Below, piece by piece: positions 7,581 to 37,887 of a stretch of DNA of 38,896 nucleotides (positions within the stretch are counted from its first letter, which is position 1; every line of letters begins with the position of its first letter). Below the pieces are notes generated by a model. That model searched no databases, was not told the origin of the DNA, and was given only the letters and a program-made list of their open reading frames with translations. The position numbers and the translations under genes are program-made. Source of the DNA: a virus; IMG/VR virus record IMGVR_UViG_3300021371_000935, positions 1 to 38,896 of that record; one strand, 5' to 3'.

Positions 7581-8286
7581 ATTTACAATCGGGTACACTT
7601 ACTACAATGAACCTGAACTACTTCGACAACAACTAAATCTTTGGAAGCATTATCCACATCAAGTTGAAATAATACTTGTGGATGATGGTTCCAAAGAATT
7701 TCCTGCATACGATATTGTAAAAGATTTCGACTATCCAAACTTTCAATTATGGCGGGTAGATGAAGATTTGGGATTTAATAGTCATGGTTGTCGCAATTTA
7801 ATTGCTGACATAGCAACTTGCGATAACATATTATTCTCCGATATTGATTGTAACTTCTCACCTGAAACAATTGCGTTTCTAAAGCGAGTGACCTTCAATC
7901 CAAAAAGACTGTACTATTTTTCTTTTTACTCTTCTGCCTCATTTGAGTATCATCCTTGGCCAGGACATCCTAACGTCTTTATTATCAATAAAGACAAGTT
8001 TTGGGAAGCAGGTGGCTATGACGAATCGTTCACTGGTTGGCATCATGGCGACAGAGAGTTTATAGAAAGATTACAGATTGTGACAGAGCTATCAAAAATA
8101 TCAGATCACCTAGGCTTCACAGTAGTACGAGGCGCCAGAAAGTGTGAGGTAGATGCTAGAGTAGATAAAACTACTTATGATGATGTTCATATGGTCATAA
8201 AAATACCCACAAGTATGCCTCCAGAATCAGAATTAAAAGGCACAGTTAAAGAAAAAATTAACTTCTCGTATTCTCGATTATTATAA
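7561..8286 (+). CDS. family 2-type glycosyltransferase
   Basis: 241 residues with a GT-A fold signature: TIGYTYYNEPELL (about residues 8-20), VEIILVDDGSKE (about 35-46), and the DxD-like FSDIDC (about 93-98), followed by a GGYDESFTGWHHGDREF acceptor-loop motif. Such enzymes transfer a sugar from a nucleotide-sugar. With a nucleotide-sugar dehydrogenase in the same window, glycosylation of DNA, virion or host envelope is possible; the acceptor is unknown. It overlaps the previous gene by 20 bases, and its end contains the late promoter at 8282. Confidence 0.8.
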   Translation: MASKDCRFTIGYTYYNEPELLRQQLNLWKHYPHQVEIILVDDGSKEFPAYDIVKDFDYPNFQLWRVDEDLGFNSHGCRNLIADIATCDNILFSDIDCNFSPETIAFLKRVTFNPKRLYYFSFYSSASFEYHPWPGHPNVFIINKDKFWEAGGYDESFTGWHHGDREFIERLQIVTELSKISDHLGFTVVRGARKCEVDARVDKTTYDDVHMVIKIPTSMPPESELKGTVKEKINFSYSRLL

Positions 8287-22956: not shown

Positions 22957-23934
22957 ATGGCTACAAAATTGAAGTTGACAGATGAAAGGAGCTATTTCAA
23001 GCCTTTCAACTACGCTTGGGCATACGATGCTTGGCTAAAGCACGAACAGTCTCATTGGTTACACACAGAAGTACCAATGAACGAAGATGTAAAAGATTGG
23101 AAATCAAAACTGTCTGATGCAGAAAAAGGATTTCTTACTAACATCTTCCGTTTCTTTACTCAAGGTGATATCGATGTGGCGGGTGGTTATGTAAATAACT
23201 ACTTGCCTAACTTCCCACAGCCTGAAGTTAGAATGATGCTCGCAGGGTTTGCTGCTCGTGAGGCTCTTCATGTAGCAGCATATTCCCACCTCATTGAGAC
23301 ATTGGGCATGCCTGAGTCTACTTACAATGAGTTTCTTGAATACGAAGCGATGAAAGAGAAACACGATTATCTTCAAGAACTTTCGATGGAGACACAAGAC
23401 AAGACAACAATCGCTACTAACATTGCGGCGTTTTCAGCATTTACTGAAGGTATGCAGTTGTTCTCGTCTTTCATTATGTTGTTGAACTTTCCACGCCATG
23501 GTAAGATGAAAGGCATGGGTCAGATTGTTACTTGGTCAATCGTAGACGAAACTTTACACGCCGAGAACATGATTAAATTATTCCGTGAATATGTAAACGA
23601 GAACATTGACCTGTGGAACGATAGCCTCAAAGGTAAGATTTATACTATCGCAGAGAAGATGGTAGAATTAGAAGATCAGTTCATTGATCTAGCGTTTGCG
23701 ATGGGTGCTATGGAGAATCTAACCTCAGAAGATGTGAAGAAGTACATTCGTTACATCTGTGACAGAAGATTGATTAGTCTTGGACTCAAGGGCATCTTTA
23801 AAGTTAAGAAGAATCCATTGCCGTGGGTAGAAGAAATGATTAATGCTCCTACTCACACAAACTTTTTTGAGAATAGAGCAACTGATTATGCTCGTGGAGC
23901 ACTTTCAGGTAATTGGGGAGACGTTTGGGCATGA
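22957..23934 (+). CDS. nrdB: class I ribonucleotide reductase, small (radical) subunit
   Basis: 325 residues of the ferritin-like R2 fold. Metal and radical residues can be placed: Asp71, Glu102 and His105 (REALHVAAYS), with Tyr109 at the radical-tyrosine position, the same spacing as E. coli D84/E115/H118/Y122; the second metal half shows VDETLHAENM. This is the partner of NrdA. It starts 4 bases after the nitroreductase gene with only a weak ribosome-binding site; its TGA overlaps the next ATG. Confidence 0.94.
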   Translation: MATKLKLTDERSYFKPFNYAWAYDAWLKHEQSHWLHTEVPMNEDVKDWKSKLSDAEKGFLTNIFRFFTQGDIDVAGGYVNNYLPNFPQPEVRMMLAGFAAREALHVAAYSHLIETLGMPESTYNEFLEYEAMKEKHDYLQELSMETQDKTTIATNIAAFSAFTEGMQLFSSFIMLLNFPRHGKMKGMGQIVTWSIVDETLHAENMIKLFREYVNENIDLWNDSLKGKIYTIAEKMVELEDQFIDLAFAMGAMENLTSEDVKKYIRYICDRRLISLGLKGIFKVKKNPLPWVEEMINAPTHTNFFENRATDYARGALSGNWGDVWA

Positions 23935-29962: not shown

Positions 29963-30696
29963 TTTTCAAATGGGTTATTTTTTGATGTACCAGGCTTTAT
30001 TGAATAATTACTGTATGGCATTTTTACGATTTTTATTTCAGGCTGTACTTCATAAAAGTCTGATCTCAAACCTATTCTCATTTTAAAATCGCCTCTACCG
30101 GACAATAAAGGAATATTTGCTGGTAGTTTTAAAGGATTTTGATTTCCTATTCGGTAGAAATCATCGCCTGCTTGCATGTAGTATGCTGGCTCTGCTTTTC
30201 CAACTAAGTAGTGTTGAGTCACCATTTTACCCAAATCAACATTTTTTATATCAAGTATGTACTGAGTTTTATTTTTAAAAAACTTTTTCATAACATCTAA
30301 TGGCACAGCATCTGGATCTTTTAGTCCGCCTTTAGTGGTTGGTATTTTGGGATTTTTTATTCCAGAAAATTTAGCAAGGTCTGCAATAAACTTCTTCACT
30401 TCTCTTGACTCTGATAGGTATTTTATTGCAAAATCTTTTATGGGCGACTGTTCTCCAGGAGCATATGATGCAGTCCATTTCTTGCCGTCCCATGCCACTC
30501 GTGGATTTCCTAAATTGTCAGTGTGGCTCATCTTAACTTCAACCCAAACAGGTTTAGTTACTTTTTTGTTATTGTGCTCTGTAATCAGAACATCTGCAAA
30601 CTTTACGCTTACTTTCGGTCTTTCAGCAGTGACGCCAGGTGTAGCATCTATTGCATCTGCTACGTCTTTTTCATACTTATCTGACTTTGCACTCAT
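29959..30696 (-). CDS. PD-(D/E)XK-like nuclease
   Basis: 245 residues. Glu9 in KYEKDVADAI, Asp35 in FADVLITE and Glu53-x-Lys55 in VWVEVKMS give the E...D...ExK layout of restriction-endonuclease-fold nucleases. The remainder includes KMVTQHYLVGKAEPAYYMQ and FKMRIGLRSDFYEVQPEIK. Similar proteins occur in marine T4-like phages. ATG 30696 has AAAGGAG upstream and is served by the minus-strand late promoter at 30721-30728. Homing, DNA degradation and packaging-linked cutting are all possible. Confidence 0.65.
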   Translation of the reverse strand: MSAKSDKYEKDVADAIDATPGVTAERPKVSVKFADVLITEHNNKKVTKPVWVEVKMSHTDNLGNPRVAWDGKKWTASYAPGEQSPIKDFAIKYLSESREVKKFIADLAKFSGIKNPKIPTTKGGLKDPDAVPLDVMKKFFKNKTQYILDIKNVDLGKMVTQHYLVGKAEPAYYMQAGDDFYRIGNQNPLKLPANIPLLSGRGDFKMRIGLRSDFYEVQPEIKIVKMPYSNYSIKPGTSKNNPFEK

Positions 30697-32200: not shown

Positions 32201-32308
32201 ATGCTAATTAATATTCAAATTGAAATTGATACTGAACGAGACGCAGATGAGCTTCGTGTTTTGATGGAACTCATTCAACAGCTACAGGATAAAAAAGATG
32301 TCAACTGA
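32201..32308 (+). CDS. 35-residue protein
   Basis: Short acidic helical ORF (INIQIEIDTERDADELRVL) after AAAGGG, overlapping the MazG-like gene by 11 bases. Strand-then-helix pattern only; no function assigned. Included because of ribosome-binding site and overlap. Confidence 0.5.
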   Translation: MLINIQIEIDTERDADELRVLMELIQQLQDKKDVN

Positions 32309-32606
32309 AGGAATGTGTGAGAATTTTATTTACAAGATTAGGCAGTGGCATCATGACCGCAATCTAATCGATGGCGCCACTGACAAGGATCAGGTGTGTA
32401 AACTGATTCAAGAAGTGGGCGAACTGTCTGACAATGTATGTAAGCAACGAGATGTCCGTGACGACATTGGTGACATCATTGTAGTACTAATCAACATTGC
32501 AGAACGCAACAATATCACGATTGCTGAGTGTTTGCAGCAAGCGTATGACGATATCAAAGACCGTAAAGGTAAGATGGTAGACGGCATCTTTATCAAAGAA
32601 GAATGA
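32298..32606 (+). CDS. mazG: MazG-like nucleotide pyrophosphohydrolase
   Basis: 102 residues, the single-domain size. KLIQEVGELSDN (about residues 35-46) gives the ExxE and VRDDIGDIIVVLINIAERNN the second acidic helix of the all-alpha NTP pyrophosphatase fold. It hydrolyses NTP or dNTP to NMP and PPi; phage MazG proteins are thought to adjust nucleotide pools or ppGpp signalling. The stop overlaps the next ATG (ATGA). Confidence 0.8.
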   Translation: MSTEGMCENFIYKIRQWHHDRNLIDGATDKDQVCKLIQEVGELSDNVCKQRDVRDDIGDIIVVLINIAERNNITIAECLQQAYDDIKDRKGKMVDGIFIKEE

Positions 32607-32710
32607 TCCTTTGTGTCTGTAACAATGTTCGTTCTAGTGACACTGATAAATATCATTTGATAGGAACTTGTTGCGGTAAATGCATTCAATCTGAGAGGAA
32701 GAAAAAATGA
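32603..32710 (+). CDS. bfd: 35-residue bacterioferritin-associated-ferredoxin-like [2Fe-2S] protein
   Basis: Short ORF coupled by ATGA overlaps on both sides. LCVCNNV (Cys4, Cys6) and GTCCGKC (Cys23, Cys24, Cys27) reproduce the CxC...CGKC pattern of BFD, the small ferredoxin that reduces bacterioferritin to release Fe2+. Full-length BFD has about 31 residues between the Cys pairs; here there are about 16-17, so this is a minimal form. Cluster binding and iron release are predictions. The downstream IscU and ErpA genes in the same operon support an iron role. Confidence 0.65.
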   Translation: MILCVCNNVRSSDTDKYHLIGTCCGKCIQSERKKK

Positions 32711-32889
32711 CTATGGAAATTTATTACGCTGTTACGCTCTTCCTCATGGCAGGGTGCGGTTTTATGTCCTATCAAATAGGAAGAAAGGAAGGTGTCATGC
32801 GCTTTCTTGAATACTTAGAAAGTATGACAAATAAAGATGGCACTCTAAAGATTAAAATCACGGAGACAACATTCGAGATATTGCAGTGA
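32707..32889 (+). CDS. small single-span membrane protein
   Basis: 60 residues. One hydrophobic helix (about residues 6-22) with Cys17 and GCGFMSYQIGRKEG after it, then a charged soluble end. It overlaps the BFD-like and oxygenase-like genes by 4 bases each. No known function; could anchor or regulate the neighbouring proteins. Confidence 0.6.
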   Translation: MTMEIYYAVTLFLMAGCGFMSYQIGRKEGVMRFLEYLESMTNKDGTLKIKITETTFEILQ

Positions 32890-33473
32890 ATAATTACATA
32901 AGAGAGAATACTCTTTTTCCTCTTACTCAACGAGATATTGAAATATTCGGTAAAACAGTGAGTCATCCTGATAACGAGAGGTTGACTCATCATGCTATCA
33001 AAGACAAATCAATTCTACGGACAGATTTCACTAAGAATATGATACGCCTCGCTAAGATGTTAGACTTGGAAGTAGCATCTATTACAGCGTTCACTGGCAA
33101 ACCAGGAGAAGACTCCGCTCCTCACATCGACGGCGAGCCAGGCAAATCATATTCATGGAGACTTGCATACTACGCATCAGGTGATAATAGTATACTGAAC
33201 TGGTGGCGTGTAGGACCTGTGCTAAAACATGTTATGCTTGAACTTGACAACAACCGTTCAAAAGAAAAGAATACACCAACTGGTTATTCTGTAATAGACA
33301 CAAAGCATAAAGTTTACTCCAAAGATATAAATATAAAGTCAGCGTTTGTACGGACAGACATTCCTCACTCAGTTGATATGACAAAAGCAACAGAAGAACG
33401 CTTGACAATATCTGCAACATTCTTTCCTCATATCTCGTGGGAAGAACTCAATGAAAGATTAGACAAATTATGA
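32886..33473 (+). CDS. 2-oxoglutarate/Fe(II) oxygenase-like protein
   Basis: 195 residues from GTG 32886 overlapping the upstream TGA. PHIDG (His80, Asp82), DIPHSVD (His161) and ERLTISATF (Arg172) fit the HxD...H...R layout of 2OG-Fe(II) dioxygenases (double-stranded beta-helix). Substrate unknown; such enzymes are frequent in marine T4-like phages. It needs Fe(II), consistent with iron-handling neighbours. Overlaps the SDR gene by 4 bases. Confidence 0.65.
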   Translation: MNNYIRENTLFPLTQRDIEIFGKTVSHPDNERLTHHAIKDKSILRTDFTKNMIRLAKMLDLEVASITAFTGKPGEDSAPHIDGEPGKSYSWRLAYYASGDNSILNWWRVGPVLKHVMLELDNNRSKEKNTPTGYSVIDTKHKVYSKDINIKSAFVRTDIPHSVDMTKATEERLTISATFFPHISWEELNERLDKL

Positions 33474-34015
33474 AAATAGCAATCACTGGGACCTCTAGCG
33501 GCATAGGACTAGCCGTTAAAAATTTACTAGAGGCTGACCATGAAGTGGTGTGTCTAGATATTACAGACGGATATACTATAGACGACCTGTCTATAATTAA
33601 GCACATTTTAGATGCAGATATATTCATCAACAATGCTTTCAGTAAAACAACTCCAGCAGCACAGCAACTACTGTTTGAGACAGTGTATGGAGAATGGAAA
33701 TACACAGAGAAGCAAATTATAAATGTAGGCAGTCTTTCAAAATACTATAGCCCAGAAGACACTGTGAAATTTCCTAACTACACGAATGCTAAAAAGTCAT
33801 TGAATGAAGCGCACTGTAAAGCATTAGTACAAAAAGATAGAACGGTAAGGATAGCACAAATCTGTCCTGGTTACACAGACACCGAAATGATAGAAGAATG
33901 GGATGTTCCTAAGCTTGATGTGAGAGTGATTGCGCTCGCAATCCAACATTGTATAAAAATGGCGGAAGACGGTATAGAAATAGCAGACTACACAATTTGT
34001 AAAGCAAAGGATTAA
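33470..34015 (+). CDS. short-chain dehydrogenase/reductase
   Basis: 181 residues, short for the family (usually about 250). TGTSSGIG (residues 7-14) is the NAD(P) Rossmann motif, INNAF the NNA-like motif, Ser in INVGSLSKYY and YTNAK (YxxxK) the catalytic residues, and CPGYTDTEM the PG motif. All key residues are present although loops are shorter. Beside a ketoacyl synthase it would fit a ketoacyl reductase (FabG-like) role (inference). Confidence 0.8.
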   Translation: MKIAITGTSSGIGLAVKNLLEADHEVVCLDITDGYTIDDLSIIKHILDADIFINNAFSKTTPAAQQLLFETVYGEWKYTEKQIINVGSLSKYYSPEDTVKFPNYTNAKKSLNEAHCKALVQKDRTVRIAQICPGYTDTEMIEEWDVPKLDVRVIALAIQHCIKMAEDGIEIADYTICKAKD

Positions 34016-34016
34016 T

Positions 34017-35219
34017 ATGAAACTAGCAGTGACAGGCGTAGGCATCGTCTCGCCTCTTGGTAATAACATTGACGAAAACATGAGGGGACTATTAGACCTT
34101 GATGTAAATATTTCCGACTTCAATAAAGTTGGACACTACAGTGAACCTATGCTTGAAATTGAAAAAGCATTTCATTGCAATTATGATAGCGTAGACACTA
34201 GCGAACTAGTCAGAGAAAAGGATAGAAGCACACTAGATCCTAATGTGATTACAAGTCTCATTGCAGCAGATCAAGCAGTCAAAATGTCAGGACTAGATTT
34301 ACCTGAAGATACTCCTGTTGTTGTAGGCACAGTACGAGGCGGTTCTGCTAATCTAGGCAGAGTGGGCAACGAACTGTGTCAAGGAAAGACACGCATTCAT
34401 CCTAATGTTCTATTGAGTAGTGCTCAGGACTATGTAAGTAATCATGTTAGTAGTCATTTCAAACTCAAAGGGCCTAGTCTAGGCACAAGCGCAGCGTGTG
34501 TGAGTTCCATACAAGCCTTAGACATTGCTAAGAAATATATGCAAACAGACGGATACACAGCAGCCATCGTAGGCGGCACAGAGTTTATGGCTAACTCAAT
34601 CACCGCAATCTATTTTCAAATGTTAGGCGCTGCGAGCAAAACAAACAAAAGCACTCCTTGGGACAAAGACAGAGATGGACTTGTCATAGGCGAAGGCAGC
34701 GTGTATGTTGTAGTAGAGCCGCTAGAACTAGCAGAAGCACGAGGAGCTAATATCCGCTGGGTGATTGACGGTATCGGCATTGCAAACGATGCAGCGCATG
34801 TACTACAGCCAGACAAGAACGGCACAGGTGCTAGAATTGCTATTGAAAAAGCAATGAAACAAGCTGATACACAGCCAAGAGATTACAAAGTATTCAACGC
34901 ACACGCTACAAGCACTCCTACAGGTGATCCTATCGAGTACGATGTACTGAAGGACATATTCCTTGGCGGCTTCTTGTACAGCAACAAAGGTCAGATAGGA
35001 CACATGATGGGTGCATCAGGTCTCACAGAACTAGTACTAGGTGCTGAGGCAATGAGAAGAGGTTTTATACCAGGCAACGCAGGACTTAAAACTCCTTTCA
35101 CGGACGATAAATATTTCACACTCAAAGAAAAAACTGTAACCGGAGAATACCATAGGTTTATGAAAACAAGTTTTGGCTTCGGAGGCAGAGCAGCAGCAGT
35201 CAGTGTAAGGAAATCATGA
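34017..35219 (+). CDS. fabF: beta-ketoacyl-ACP synthase (KAS I/II type)
   Basis: 400 residues, full length for FabF/FabB. It condenses an acyl thioester with malonyl-ACP. The catalytic set is intact: Cys161 (SAACVSSIQA), His296 (NAHATSTPTGD), Lys324 and His329 (SNKGQIGHMMGASG), with the GFGG loop near the C terminus. No acyl carrier protein gene is seen, so host ACP is presumably used. It starts 1 base after the SDR stop and overlaps the radical SAM gene by 4. Closeness to FabF versus a polyketide-type KS cannot be judged by eye. Confidence 0.88.
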   Translation: MKLAVTGVGIVSPLGNNIDENMRGLLDLDVNISDFNKVGHYSEPMLEIEKAFHCNYDSVDTSELVREKDRSTLDPNVITSLIAADQAVKMSGLDLPEDTPVVVGTVRGGSANLGRVGNELCQGKTRIHPNVLLSSAQDYVSNHVSSHFKLKGPSLGTSAACVSSIQALDIAKKYMQTDGYTAAIVGGTEFMANSITAIYFQMLGAASKTNKSTPWDKDRDGLVIGEGSVYVVVEPLELAEARGANIRWVIDGIGIANDAAHVLQPDKNGTGARIAIEKAMKQADTQPRDYKVFNAHATSTPTGDPIEYDVLKDIFLGGFLYSNKGQIGHMMGASGLTELVLGAEAMRRGFIPGNAGLKTPFTDDKYFTLKEKTVTGEYHRFMKTSFGFGGRAAAVSVRKS

Positions 35220-36463
35220 AAGATAACGGCGTTTTTTGTATACTGCCTTTTGTGCATTTACATATAAACACACAGGGCAATGTTAAGCCTTGTTGTATAT
35301 CTCCTACAATTTCGGAAAATGTAGGCAAAGTATCAGATTCAACTATTGAAGAAATTTTTAATAGCGACAAAATGAAACAGTTGCGACTTGATATGATTAA
35401 TGGAGTATCTCGTCCTGATTTTTGCAAAACGTGTTATAAGAACGAAGCCGCTGGGTTCCAGACATATAGAGGAGCTTTGAATGGAGCATTCAGCGACTCA
35501 GTTGAGCCAGTGTTAAATTCTATAAAAGAAGACGGTTATCTAGAACCTAAACTAAAGTATCTCGACACTCGCTACAGCAATCTGTGTAATCTCAAATGCC
35601 GCACTTGTGGTGATAAATACAGCACGTCCTGGTCAAAAGAAAACGCCGACAACGGCAAAGGAATCTACAAAGAACTCAAAGCGTACACAGAAAAAGATCC
35701 TCTTGACAATCAGTATGTCAACGTGAAGAGAGCATACTTTGCAGGCGGCGAACCTCTGATTATGCCAGAACACTATGACACGCTCAGAAAGATCATAGAG
35801 ACAGGCAGAGCAAGCGAGGTTGAGCTTGCGTACAATACAAACATGACTAAGCTAAATTACAATAAACAGTATTTGCCTGATCTGTGGAAACAATTTAGGT
35901 CAGTTCACCTCGGCCTAAGCATAGATAACGTCGGAGAAAGAGCAAACTACATAAGGCATGGCAACGTAAAATGGAATAAGATAGAGCAAAACATAAAAAC
36001 GCTAAGGGACTATTCCAACGTAGACTTTGTTATATCACCAACGGTCAGCATGATGAGCGCATACACTATGACTGACATGCATCGATATCTTTTTGAAAAT
36101 AACATTATTCGAGATATTGATCAAATTCGTTTTAACTTGCTCCATGAACCTGGTTATTATTCAGTAAAGATTCTCCCGGATCACATTAAAAAAGAGATAC
36201 AAGCAAAGATAGCAGACCATATCATTTGGATTGAAGAGAACAATGGAACACAAGCCACGGTAAACGAATTTCAAACTTTATCAGACTATCTCAACAATAC
36301 TTGGTCAGATTTCGAGCAGATGTTGTGGACAACTCACCTTATAAAAGAAATAACAACGACTGACAAAATAAGAAACGAATCATTTCCTGATACCTTCCCA
36401 GAATACCGAGAGTGGTGGGAAGAGATTACTAAAAACGTAATACCTACGACTAACATACAATAA
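35216..36463 (+). CDS. twitch-domain radical SAM enzyme
   Basis: 415 residues. The N terminus has a twitch/SPASM-like Cys set: Cys8, Cys26/27 and Cys70/73 (FCILPFVHLH, KPCCIS, FCKTCY). The radical SAM core follows with CX3CX2C at Cys124/128/131 (SNLCNLKCRTC) and GGEP at 177-180. One cluster in the core binds SAM and makes the 5'-deoxyadenosyl radical; the other may bind an auxiliary cluster. Similar proteins occur in marine phages with unknown substrate. It precedes iscU by 10 bases and is the obvious local Fe-S client. Confidence 0.85.
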   Translation: MKDNGVFCILPFVHLHINTQGNVKPCCISPTISENVGKVSDSTIEEIFNSDKMKQLRLDMINGVSRPDFCKTCYKNEAAGFQTYRGALNGAFSDSVEPVLNSIKEDGYLEPKLKYLDTRYSNLCNLKCRTCGDKYSTSWSKENADNGKGIYKELKAYTEKDPLDNQYVNVKRAYFAGGEPLIMPEHYDTLRKIIETGRASEVELAYNTNMTKLNYNKQYLPDLWKQFRSVHLGLSIDNVGERANYIRHGNVKWNKIEQNIKTLRDYSNVDFVISPTVSMMSAYTMTDMHRYLFENNIIRDIDQIRFNLLHEPGYYSVKILPDHIKKEIQAKIADHIIWIEENNGTQATVNEFQTLSDYLNNTWSDFEQMLWTTHLIKEITTTDKIRNESFPDTFPEYREWWEEITKNVIPTTNIQ

Positions 36464-36473
36464 GGAAAAGCAA

Positions 36474-36854
36474 ATGGCATACTCAGATAAAGTTATTGAT
36501 CATTACGAGAACCCACGCAACGTAGGCAAATTCGATCCAGCAAAGCAAAACATAGGCACAGGCATGGTAGGAGCACCTGCTTGCGGTGATGTCATGCGTT
36601 TACAGATCGAGGTAGACGAAAACAACGTCATCACGGACGCCAAATTCAAAACCTACGGCTGTGGATCAGCAATCGCATCATCAAGCCTATTAACAGAATG
36701 GGTCAAAGGATTGTCCTTAGACGAAGCAAAAGACATAAAGAACGTAGACTTAGCAGAAGAACTAGCATTGCCTCCAGTAAAAATTCATTGCTCAGTCTTA
36801 GCCGAAGACGCTATCAAGGCAGCAATCAAAGACTATCAGGACAAACAAGTATAA
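36474..36854 (+). CDS. iscU: IscU Fe-S cluster scaffold protein
   Basis: 126 residues, colinear with bacterial IscU. It is the scaffold on which IscS sulfur and iron form [2Fe-2S]/[4Fe-4S] clusters. Ligands and motifs sit at the E. coli positions: Cys37 and Asp39 (GAPACGD), Cys63 (YGCGSA), LPPVK (HscA site, 99-103), His105 and Cys106. No IscS, HscA or ferredoxin of the Isc type is encoded here, so host partners would be needed. AAGGAAAAG precedes ATG 36474. The residue match is so high that recent acquisition from a gamma/betaproteobacterium is likely (inference). Confidence 0.95.
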   Translation: MAYSDKVIDHYENPRNVGKFDPAKQNIGTGMVGAPACGDVMRLQIEVDENNVITDAKFKTYGCGSAIASSSLLTEWVKGLSLDEAKDIKNVDLAEELALPPVKIHCSVLAEDAIKAAIKDYQDKQV

Positions 36855-37563: not shown

Positions 37564-37887
37564 ATGATAGAAGCATACACACCGAAAGCATTAATCTTAA
37601 CGGAAAAAGCAAAAGAAAAAGCAAATTCTCTTAAAGACGGAGACAAGCTATTAAGAGTCTATGTACATGGAGGAGGATGTAGCGGCTTTCAATACGGATT
37701 CAGCATAGAAGCAAAAGCAGACGATGATACCGTAATAGATGAAGCAGTACTCGTAGATAGCTTATCATATAGTTATGTAGTAGGAAGCACGCTAGATTAT
37801 AAAGAAGATATCATGGGTAGTAGCTTTACATTAGAGAATCCCAATGCCGTAGGTACTTGCGGTTGCGGAGTTAGCTTTACAGTTTGA
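37564..37887 (+). CDS. erpA: A-type Fe-S carrier (ErpA/IscA family)
   Basis: 107 residues. GGGCSGFQYGF (Cys39) and TCGCG (Cys99, Cys101) form the three-Cys cluster site of A-type carriers, which take clusters from IscU to target enzymes. RVYVHGGGCSGFQYGF and NPNA.. before the CGC motif look closer to ErpA than IscA. It is the last gene of the Fe-S operon, 2 bases after the previous stop. Together with IscU it would load clusters such as those of the radical SAM enzyme. Confidence 0.93.
   Translation: MIEAYTPKALILTEKAKEKANSLKDGDKLLRVYVHGGGCSGFQYGFSIEAKADDDTVIDEAVLVDSLSYSYVVGSTLDYKEDIMGSSFTLENPNAVGTCGCGVSFTV

Follow-up and report, generated by a model that had tools for sequence, protein, structure and literature searches.

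The window, by which we mean the whole 38,896-nucleotide stretch of viral DNA analysed here, is the genome of a T4-like phage, and it carries T4-like markers in the form of UvsX, T4 RNase H, a DnaB-type helicase, NrdA/NrdB and ThyX. Our interest centres on a very short open reading frame (ORF), which we call mini-Bfd, together with its immediate neighbours and the iron and Fe-S genes of the same genome, as follows:

22957 to 23934, plus strand: NrdB, ribonucleotide reductase small subunit family (PF00268, E 7e-76), a possible iron client
32298 to 32606, plus strand: MazG-like pyrophosphohydrolase, whose stop overlaps the mini-Bfd start (ATGA)
32603 to 32710, plus strand: mini-Bfd, 35 aa, class S17 (CxC-x17-CxxC), with C4, C6, C24 and C27 as presumed ligands
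32612 to 32683, plus strand: module core from C4 to C27, conserved, CVCNNVRSSDTDKYHLIGTCCGKC
32707 to 32889, plus strand: 60-aa ORF, whose start overlaps the mini-Bfd stop (ATGA)
35216 to 36463, plus strand: radical SAM/SPASM enzyme, a possible Fe-S client
36474 to 36854, plus strand: IscU/NifU_N Fe-S scaffold (PF01592, E 4e-53), 3.8 kb downstream of mini-Bfd on the same strand
37564 to 37887, plus strand: A-type Fe-S carrier, IscA/ErpA-like (PF01521, E 3e-13)

The translated product of the ORF is MILCVCNNVRSSDTDKYHLIGTCCGKCIQSERKKK. A preliminary description of this DNA had seen in it a CxC...CCGKC pattern and translational coupling on both sides, and both observations stand: C4-x-C6 and C24-G-K-C27 are present in the 35-residue product, and 4-base ATGA overlaps join it to the MazG-like ORF and to the 60-aa ORF. 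Further along, at 32886-33473, lies a gene for a 195-aa protein that is conserved in six related contigs and has neither a Pfam nor a significant PHROG match; its HxD...H residues suggest a candidate 2OG-Fe(II) oxygenase. It is followed at 33470-35219 by two adjacent phage genes, encoding a short-chain dehydrogenase and a beta-ketoacyl synthase.

A reading frame this short could of course be an accident, and its very shortness is what speaks for that explanation, but we put the probability of a chance ORF close to nil, since it is refuted by conservation: the pattern occurred 0 times in 100 shuffles of the window, the cysteines are conserved, codons vary synonymously at conserved residues among S17 members, and dN/dS is low. 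The MazG and 195-aa genes nearby led to the first S17 relatives, and the search for homologues that the preliminary description had proposed found them across IMG/VR viral stretches. A degenerate DNA pattern picked out 74 stretches, a version left free at residue 7 picked out 108, and the S17 module (CxC-x17-CxxC) is present in about 100 IMG/VR stretches in all. A separate scan of IMG/VR, with no cysteine codon anywhere in its pattern, returned 63 stretches, of which 62 were genuine, and all 38 distinct sequences among these genuine ones keep the four pattern cysteines, so that the conservation on which the earlier reading had been staked is there. The order is C-x-C ... C-x2-C with the first cysteine at residue 4, and at S17 and S21 loci (S21 being a sister class, described below) that cysteine lies nearly always exactly three residues after the start codon; a fifth cysteine of the window protein, C23, is not conserved. 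Median dN/dS comes to 0.15 for the whole set and likewise for the window lineage, and to 0.085 where the ORF lies within tmRNA genes, all told roughly 0.10-0.15; the figures are approximate, as many pairs are saturated. The mini-Bfd gene is thus real and under protein-level selection. A conserved DNA or RNA element in place of a protein is excluded by third-position synonymous variation and low dN/dS, the latter holding even where the ORF sits inside tmRNA genes.

The module is a phage family, located by our scans in phages only and outside the catalogues searched. In 84,980 bacterial and archaeal genomes the pattern was met just 15 times, and we take these hits as chance matches because the number is close to chance expectation and none has the YHLIG core. 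Matching the S17 consensus by tblastn against 50,697 phage records produced nothing, the S21 consensus gave only insignificant matches to GenBank phages, PHROGs held no significant family for either class, four chosen phage genomes did not contain the module, and database searches with the single 35-aa window protein returned nothing informative.

What, then, is the module related to? The preliminary description had called it BFD-like, and Bfd is indeed the best PDB match for the profiles of both classes. For the S17 profile, built from 45 sequences, the top four PDB matches are all Bfd (E 3.7e-4), and against Pseudomonas aeruginosa Bfd (4e6k/6e6s) its positions 1-12 align to 1-12 and 20-32 to 34-46, so that both cluster-binding ends of Bfd align around a 14-residue deletion and C24 and C27 correspond to Bfd C38 and C41. 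Weak NCBIfam Bfd matches are found in 41 of the 45 S17 members and weak Fer2_BFD matches in 30, the best of these relatives reaching E 0.0014, below the cut-off. At the level of profiles, then, S17 is detectably homologous to Bfd, as far as sequence can tell. The two share an N-terminal M-x-x-C-x-C-[N/Q]-x-[V/I] and a GTxCGKC second ligand pair (4e6k, 6e6r/s; NF007803). They differ in that the mini-Bfd spacer is 17 residues, about half the usual length as had been stated, where Bfd has about 31 arranged as a helix-turn-helix, most of which is gone; in that free-standing mini-Bfd is minimal, at 31-35 aa; and in that the scans find it in phages only, where it often adjoins IscU or tmRNA or is fused. 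Against the Bfd reading stand the missing helix-turn-helix, the absence of Tyr2 from the window protein, its lack of a Fer2_BFD match (Pfam cut-off 26 bits) and its low-confidence AlphaFold model (pLDDT 59), with which a fold search found no match. Because the spacer length and the Pfam cut-off both fail, we class the module as a shortened phage variant of Bfd and not as Bfd itself. BsaP, a protein with three cysteines, was also considered as an analogue (PMC11099021).

The window protein, moreover, does not stand alone: it belongs to a broad phage family that also takes in fusions and a larger, less shortened sister class. This class, S21 (CxC-x21-CxxC), was found by searching IscU loci and numbers at least 120 stretches in an IMG/VR pattern scan. 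It shares with S17 the same N-terminus and the IscU and tmRNA contexts, and differs in having four more residues between the ligand pairs, a usual length of 50-65 aa and a model that matches the Bfd fold. The two profiles match each other at E 3.9e-20, the S21 profile finds Bfd as its best PDB match (E 1.4e-5), and Fer2_BFD matches occur in 61 of 69 S21 members, none of them seen to pass the cut-off. The S21 AlphaFold model reaches a pLDDT of about 90 across the first 30 residues; Foldseek assigns it to Bfd with probability 0.92-0.96 (E 0.06), every other hit being at or below 0.02, and VIA-align gives a Z of only 2.8, with an rmsd of 2.8 over 41 residues. Stretches with the spacer-31 pattern numbered only eight, and of these about four are genuine Bfd. 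Judged by these comparisons, S21 forms a bridge from S17 to true Bfd with its spacer of 31.

A rather different proposal, which we rate as improbable but deserving of attention, is that the four cysteines form a knuckle holding zinc and not a cluster, in a small adaptor that perhaps works on RNA or the translation apparatus. The YHLIGTxCGxC end does resemble zinc-ribbon ends (DUF35 chain 6esq, E 0.08), 30 of the 45 S17 members match zinc_ribbon_6 weakly, the module occurs in tmRNA genes and beside bS21, and in fusions to T5orf172-type endonucleases it stands in place of a treble-clef zinc finger. DUF35/zinc_ribbon_6 and treble-clef (DUF4379) fingers share with it an HL-x-G-x-x-C-x-x-C end; their first pair, however, is CxxC or CxxH, whereas that of mini-Bfd is CxC at residue 4. 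The zinc_ribbon_6 score is 12.4 bits against a cut-off of 27, and the profiles speak for Bfd: S17 scores true phage Bfds at 12-21 bits and a treble-clef finger at 3.8, S21 scores them at 18-34 and 1.4, and S21 members match Fer2_BFD over zinc_ribbon_6 by 61 to 3. A DUF4379-type zinc finger as ancestor is likewise disfavoured by profile scores far lower than those of Bfd, the comparison being with one finger sequence. As for the fusions themselves, the module forms an N-terminal extension of a T4-type UvsW helicase (L152:3805-5391), of a PD-(D/E)XK exonuclease (L368:7755-8510) and of a T5orf172-like nuclease (L116:4960-5421). In this it resembles the PF04324 Fer2_BFD domain of larger proteins, which has the same ligand pattern and is also fused to other domains; the differences are these particular partners and a score below the family cut-off. 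The UvsW and exonuclease of cultured phages begin to match only at about residue 25-34, past the module.

In P. aeruginosa, Bfd is positioned over a heme of bacterioferritin, and the electrons that it sends inward free Fe2+ (PMC7760384), the residues that dock on bacterioferritin being M1, Y2 and L5 (PMC12261321). The phage family drops the middle of the protein and retains mainly the four ligands and the N-terminal strand, conserved as M-[Y/F/I]-x-C-[I/V]-C-N; at the docking positions it has mostly M/V/L1, Y/F2 and I/V5. Since the docking strand is conserved, mini-Bfd is most likely an electron carrier to host bacterioferritin. The explanation that we favour, and to which we would give about an even chance, is that it is a shortened Bfd descendant with a [2Fe-2S] cluster that frees the iron of host bacterioferritin for phage Fe-S assembly and NrdB. 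In this scheme one [2Fe-2S] cluster would most likely sit on the four conserved cysteines; the N-terminal strand would be the part of Bfd that docks; electrons delivered to host bacterioferritin would free Fe2+; and this Fe2+ could pass to the phage IscU and A-type carrier, which would build clusters for radical SAM enzymes, or could be used directly by NrdB. The cluster type, the partner and the direction of electron flow are what we infer here, and having I2 and V5 and no Tyr2, the window protein is a weaker case for bacterioferritin docking than most of its relatives.

The same docking face, better preserved than the fold, could also be taken to mean that the protein is a decoy, one that fills the place of Bfd on host bacterioferritin, passes on no electrons and thereby blocks the release of iron. 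We think this highly improbable, because a decoy has no need of four strictly conserved presumed ligands, and because the genes to which the module is linked, those for Fe-S assembly, require iron.

That link is an observed one. Within the context set of 142 distinct modules (70 S17 and 72 S21), IscU lies no more than 5 kb away from 23, spread over 11-14 sequence clusters, compared with none of 78 MazG-anchored control loci. The controls form a single lineage-biased set and the loci are not fully independent, so that p-values for this comparison are no more than indicative; a paper on phage Fe-S assembly genes (PMC5332604) gives a base rate for IscU of 6 in 1,352 marine viral genomes. The iscU and A-type carrier genes of that paper are the very genes to which the module is linked here, and the passages of it consulted make no mention of a Bfd-type protein. 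Most module loci have no IscU nearby, and neither IscU nor IscA was detected in most of the large module-bearing records, which may be fragments, so the IscU link is common and not universal. Where the genes do adjoin, the arrangement is tight: an IscU gene lies directly upstream in L110, L158, L148 and L293, its stop overlapping the module start; L121 and L159 have the order IscU-IscA-module, with the module beginning at the stop of IscA; and L108 has the order IscU-module-IscA. A further neighbour, found upstream of both S21 and S17 modules, is as frequent as IscU (cluster 2; 20 loci, for example L391) and may be a putative secreted protein resembling cell-wall hydrolases.

The direct overlap with the stop codon of IscU or IscA, met in several lineages, speaks for a reading that we consider possible though rather unlikely, in which the protein is again a Bfd-derived [2Fe-2S] protein, and its partner is the phage or host Isc machinery and not bacterioferritin, making it an electron donor or cluster carrier with a role like that of Fdx in isc operons. 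A bacterioferritin gene was not seen adjoining the module, and of 25 records bearing the module only 2 have ferritin-family genes (the S21-bearing records of L307, at 148549-148977, and L314, at 30295-30693). IscU is, however, absent from many loci, and the bacterioferritin-docking face (M1, Y2, L/I5) is largely kept, albeit perhaps for the sake of the first ligand pair alone. The economical reading would be a stripped cluster carrier that has either kept its docking on bacterioferritin or shifted it to IscU. Of the preliminary description as a whole, then, Bfd ancestry, the conserved cysteines, a real gene and the link to iron and Fe-S genes are borne out, and the suggestion that this is the smallest BFD-type protein is not, since a relative, L275, is shorter at 31 residues.

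Should the module bind a cluster, spacers of 31, 21 and 17 would form a natural series bearing on the least protein with which a [2Fe-2S] ferredoxin can do. The module would then also point to phage control of intracellular iron release, in a field where IscU and A-type carriers were already known from viruses, and would offer a small genetic handle on that control. More speculative, and in our estimation a minority prospect, is that the module works as a ferredoxin in its free-standing form of 31-35 residues, which might make it the smallest [2Fe-2S] ferredoxin-type protein in nature, drawing iron from host stores into phage Fe-S assembly, and that in several lineages, where its ORF lies inside a permuted tmRNA gene, one transcript yields both a tmRNA and an iron protein.

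It is puzzling in its own right that a protein gene under selection should stand in the intervening sequence of a tmRNA. Six distinct loci of class S17, and one of class S21, have the ORF placed between the pieces of a permuted tmRNA gene, and tmRNA is found near 22 of the 142 modules as against 1 of the 78 controls, a lineage-biased set. In L100 (7891-8285) the acceptor piece ends with its CCA at 7984, the ORF opens at 7987, two bases beyond it, and reaches into the second piece from about 8077; the arrangement with the ORF in the intervening sequence is also observed in L091, L111, L117, L119, L137, L141 and L403. S21 loci where a permuted tmRNA begins downstream of the module start, mostly by 65-150 bases, number a further 15 (for example L390:6178-6576). 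A paper on the tmRNA database (PMC11915505) mentions one intervening sequence that contains a tRNA gene, and we found no report of a protein gene in such a place in the open-licence literature. At other loci it is a gene of the phage bS21 family that lies directly upstream of mini-Bfd, in L098, L099, L115, L123, L135, L139 and L151, with the family confirmed by Pfam for L115.
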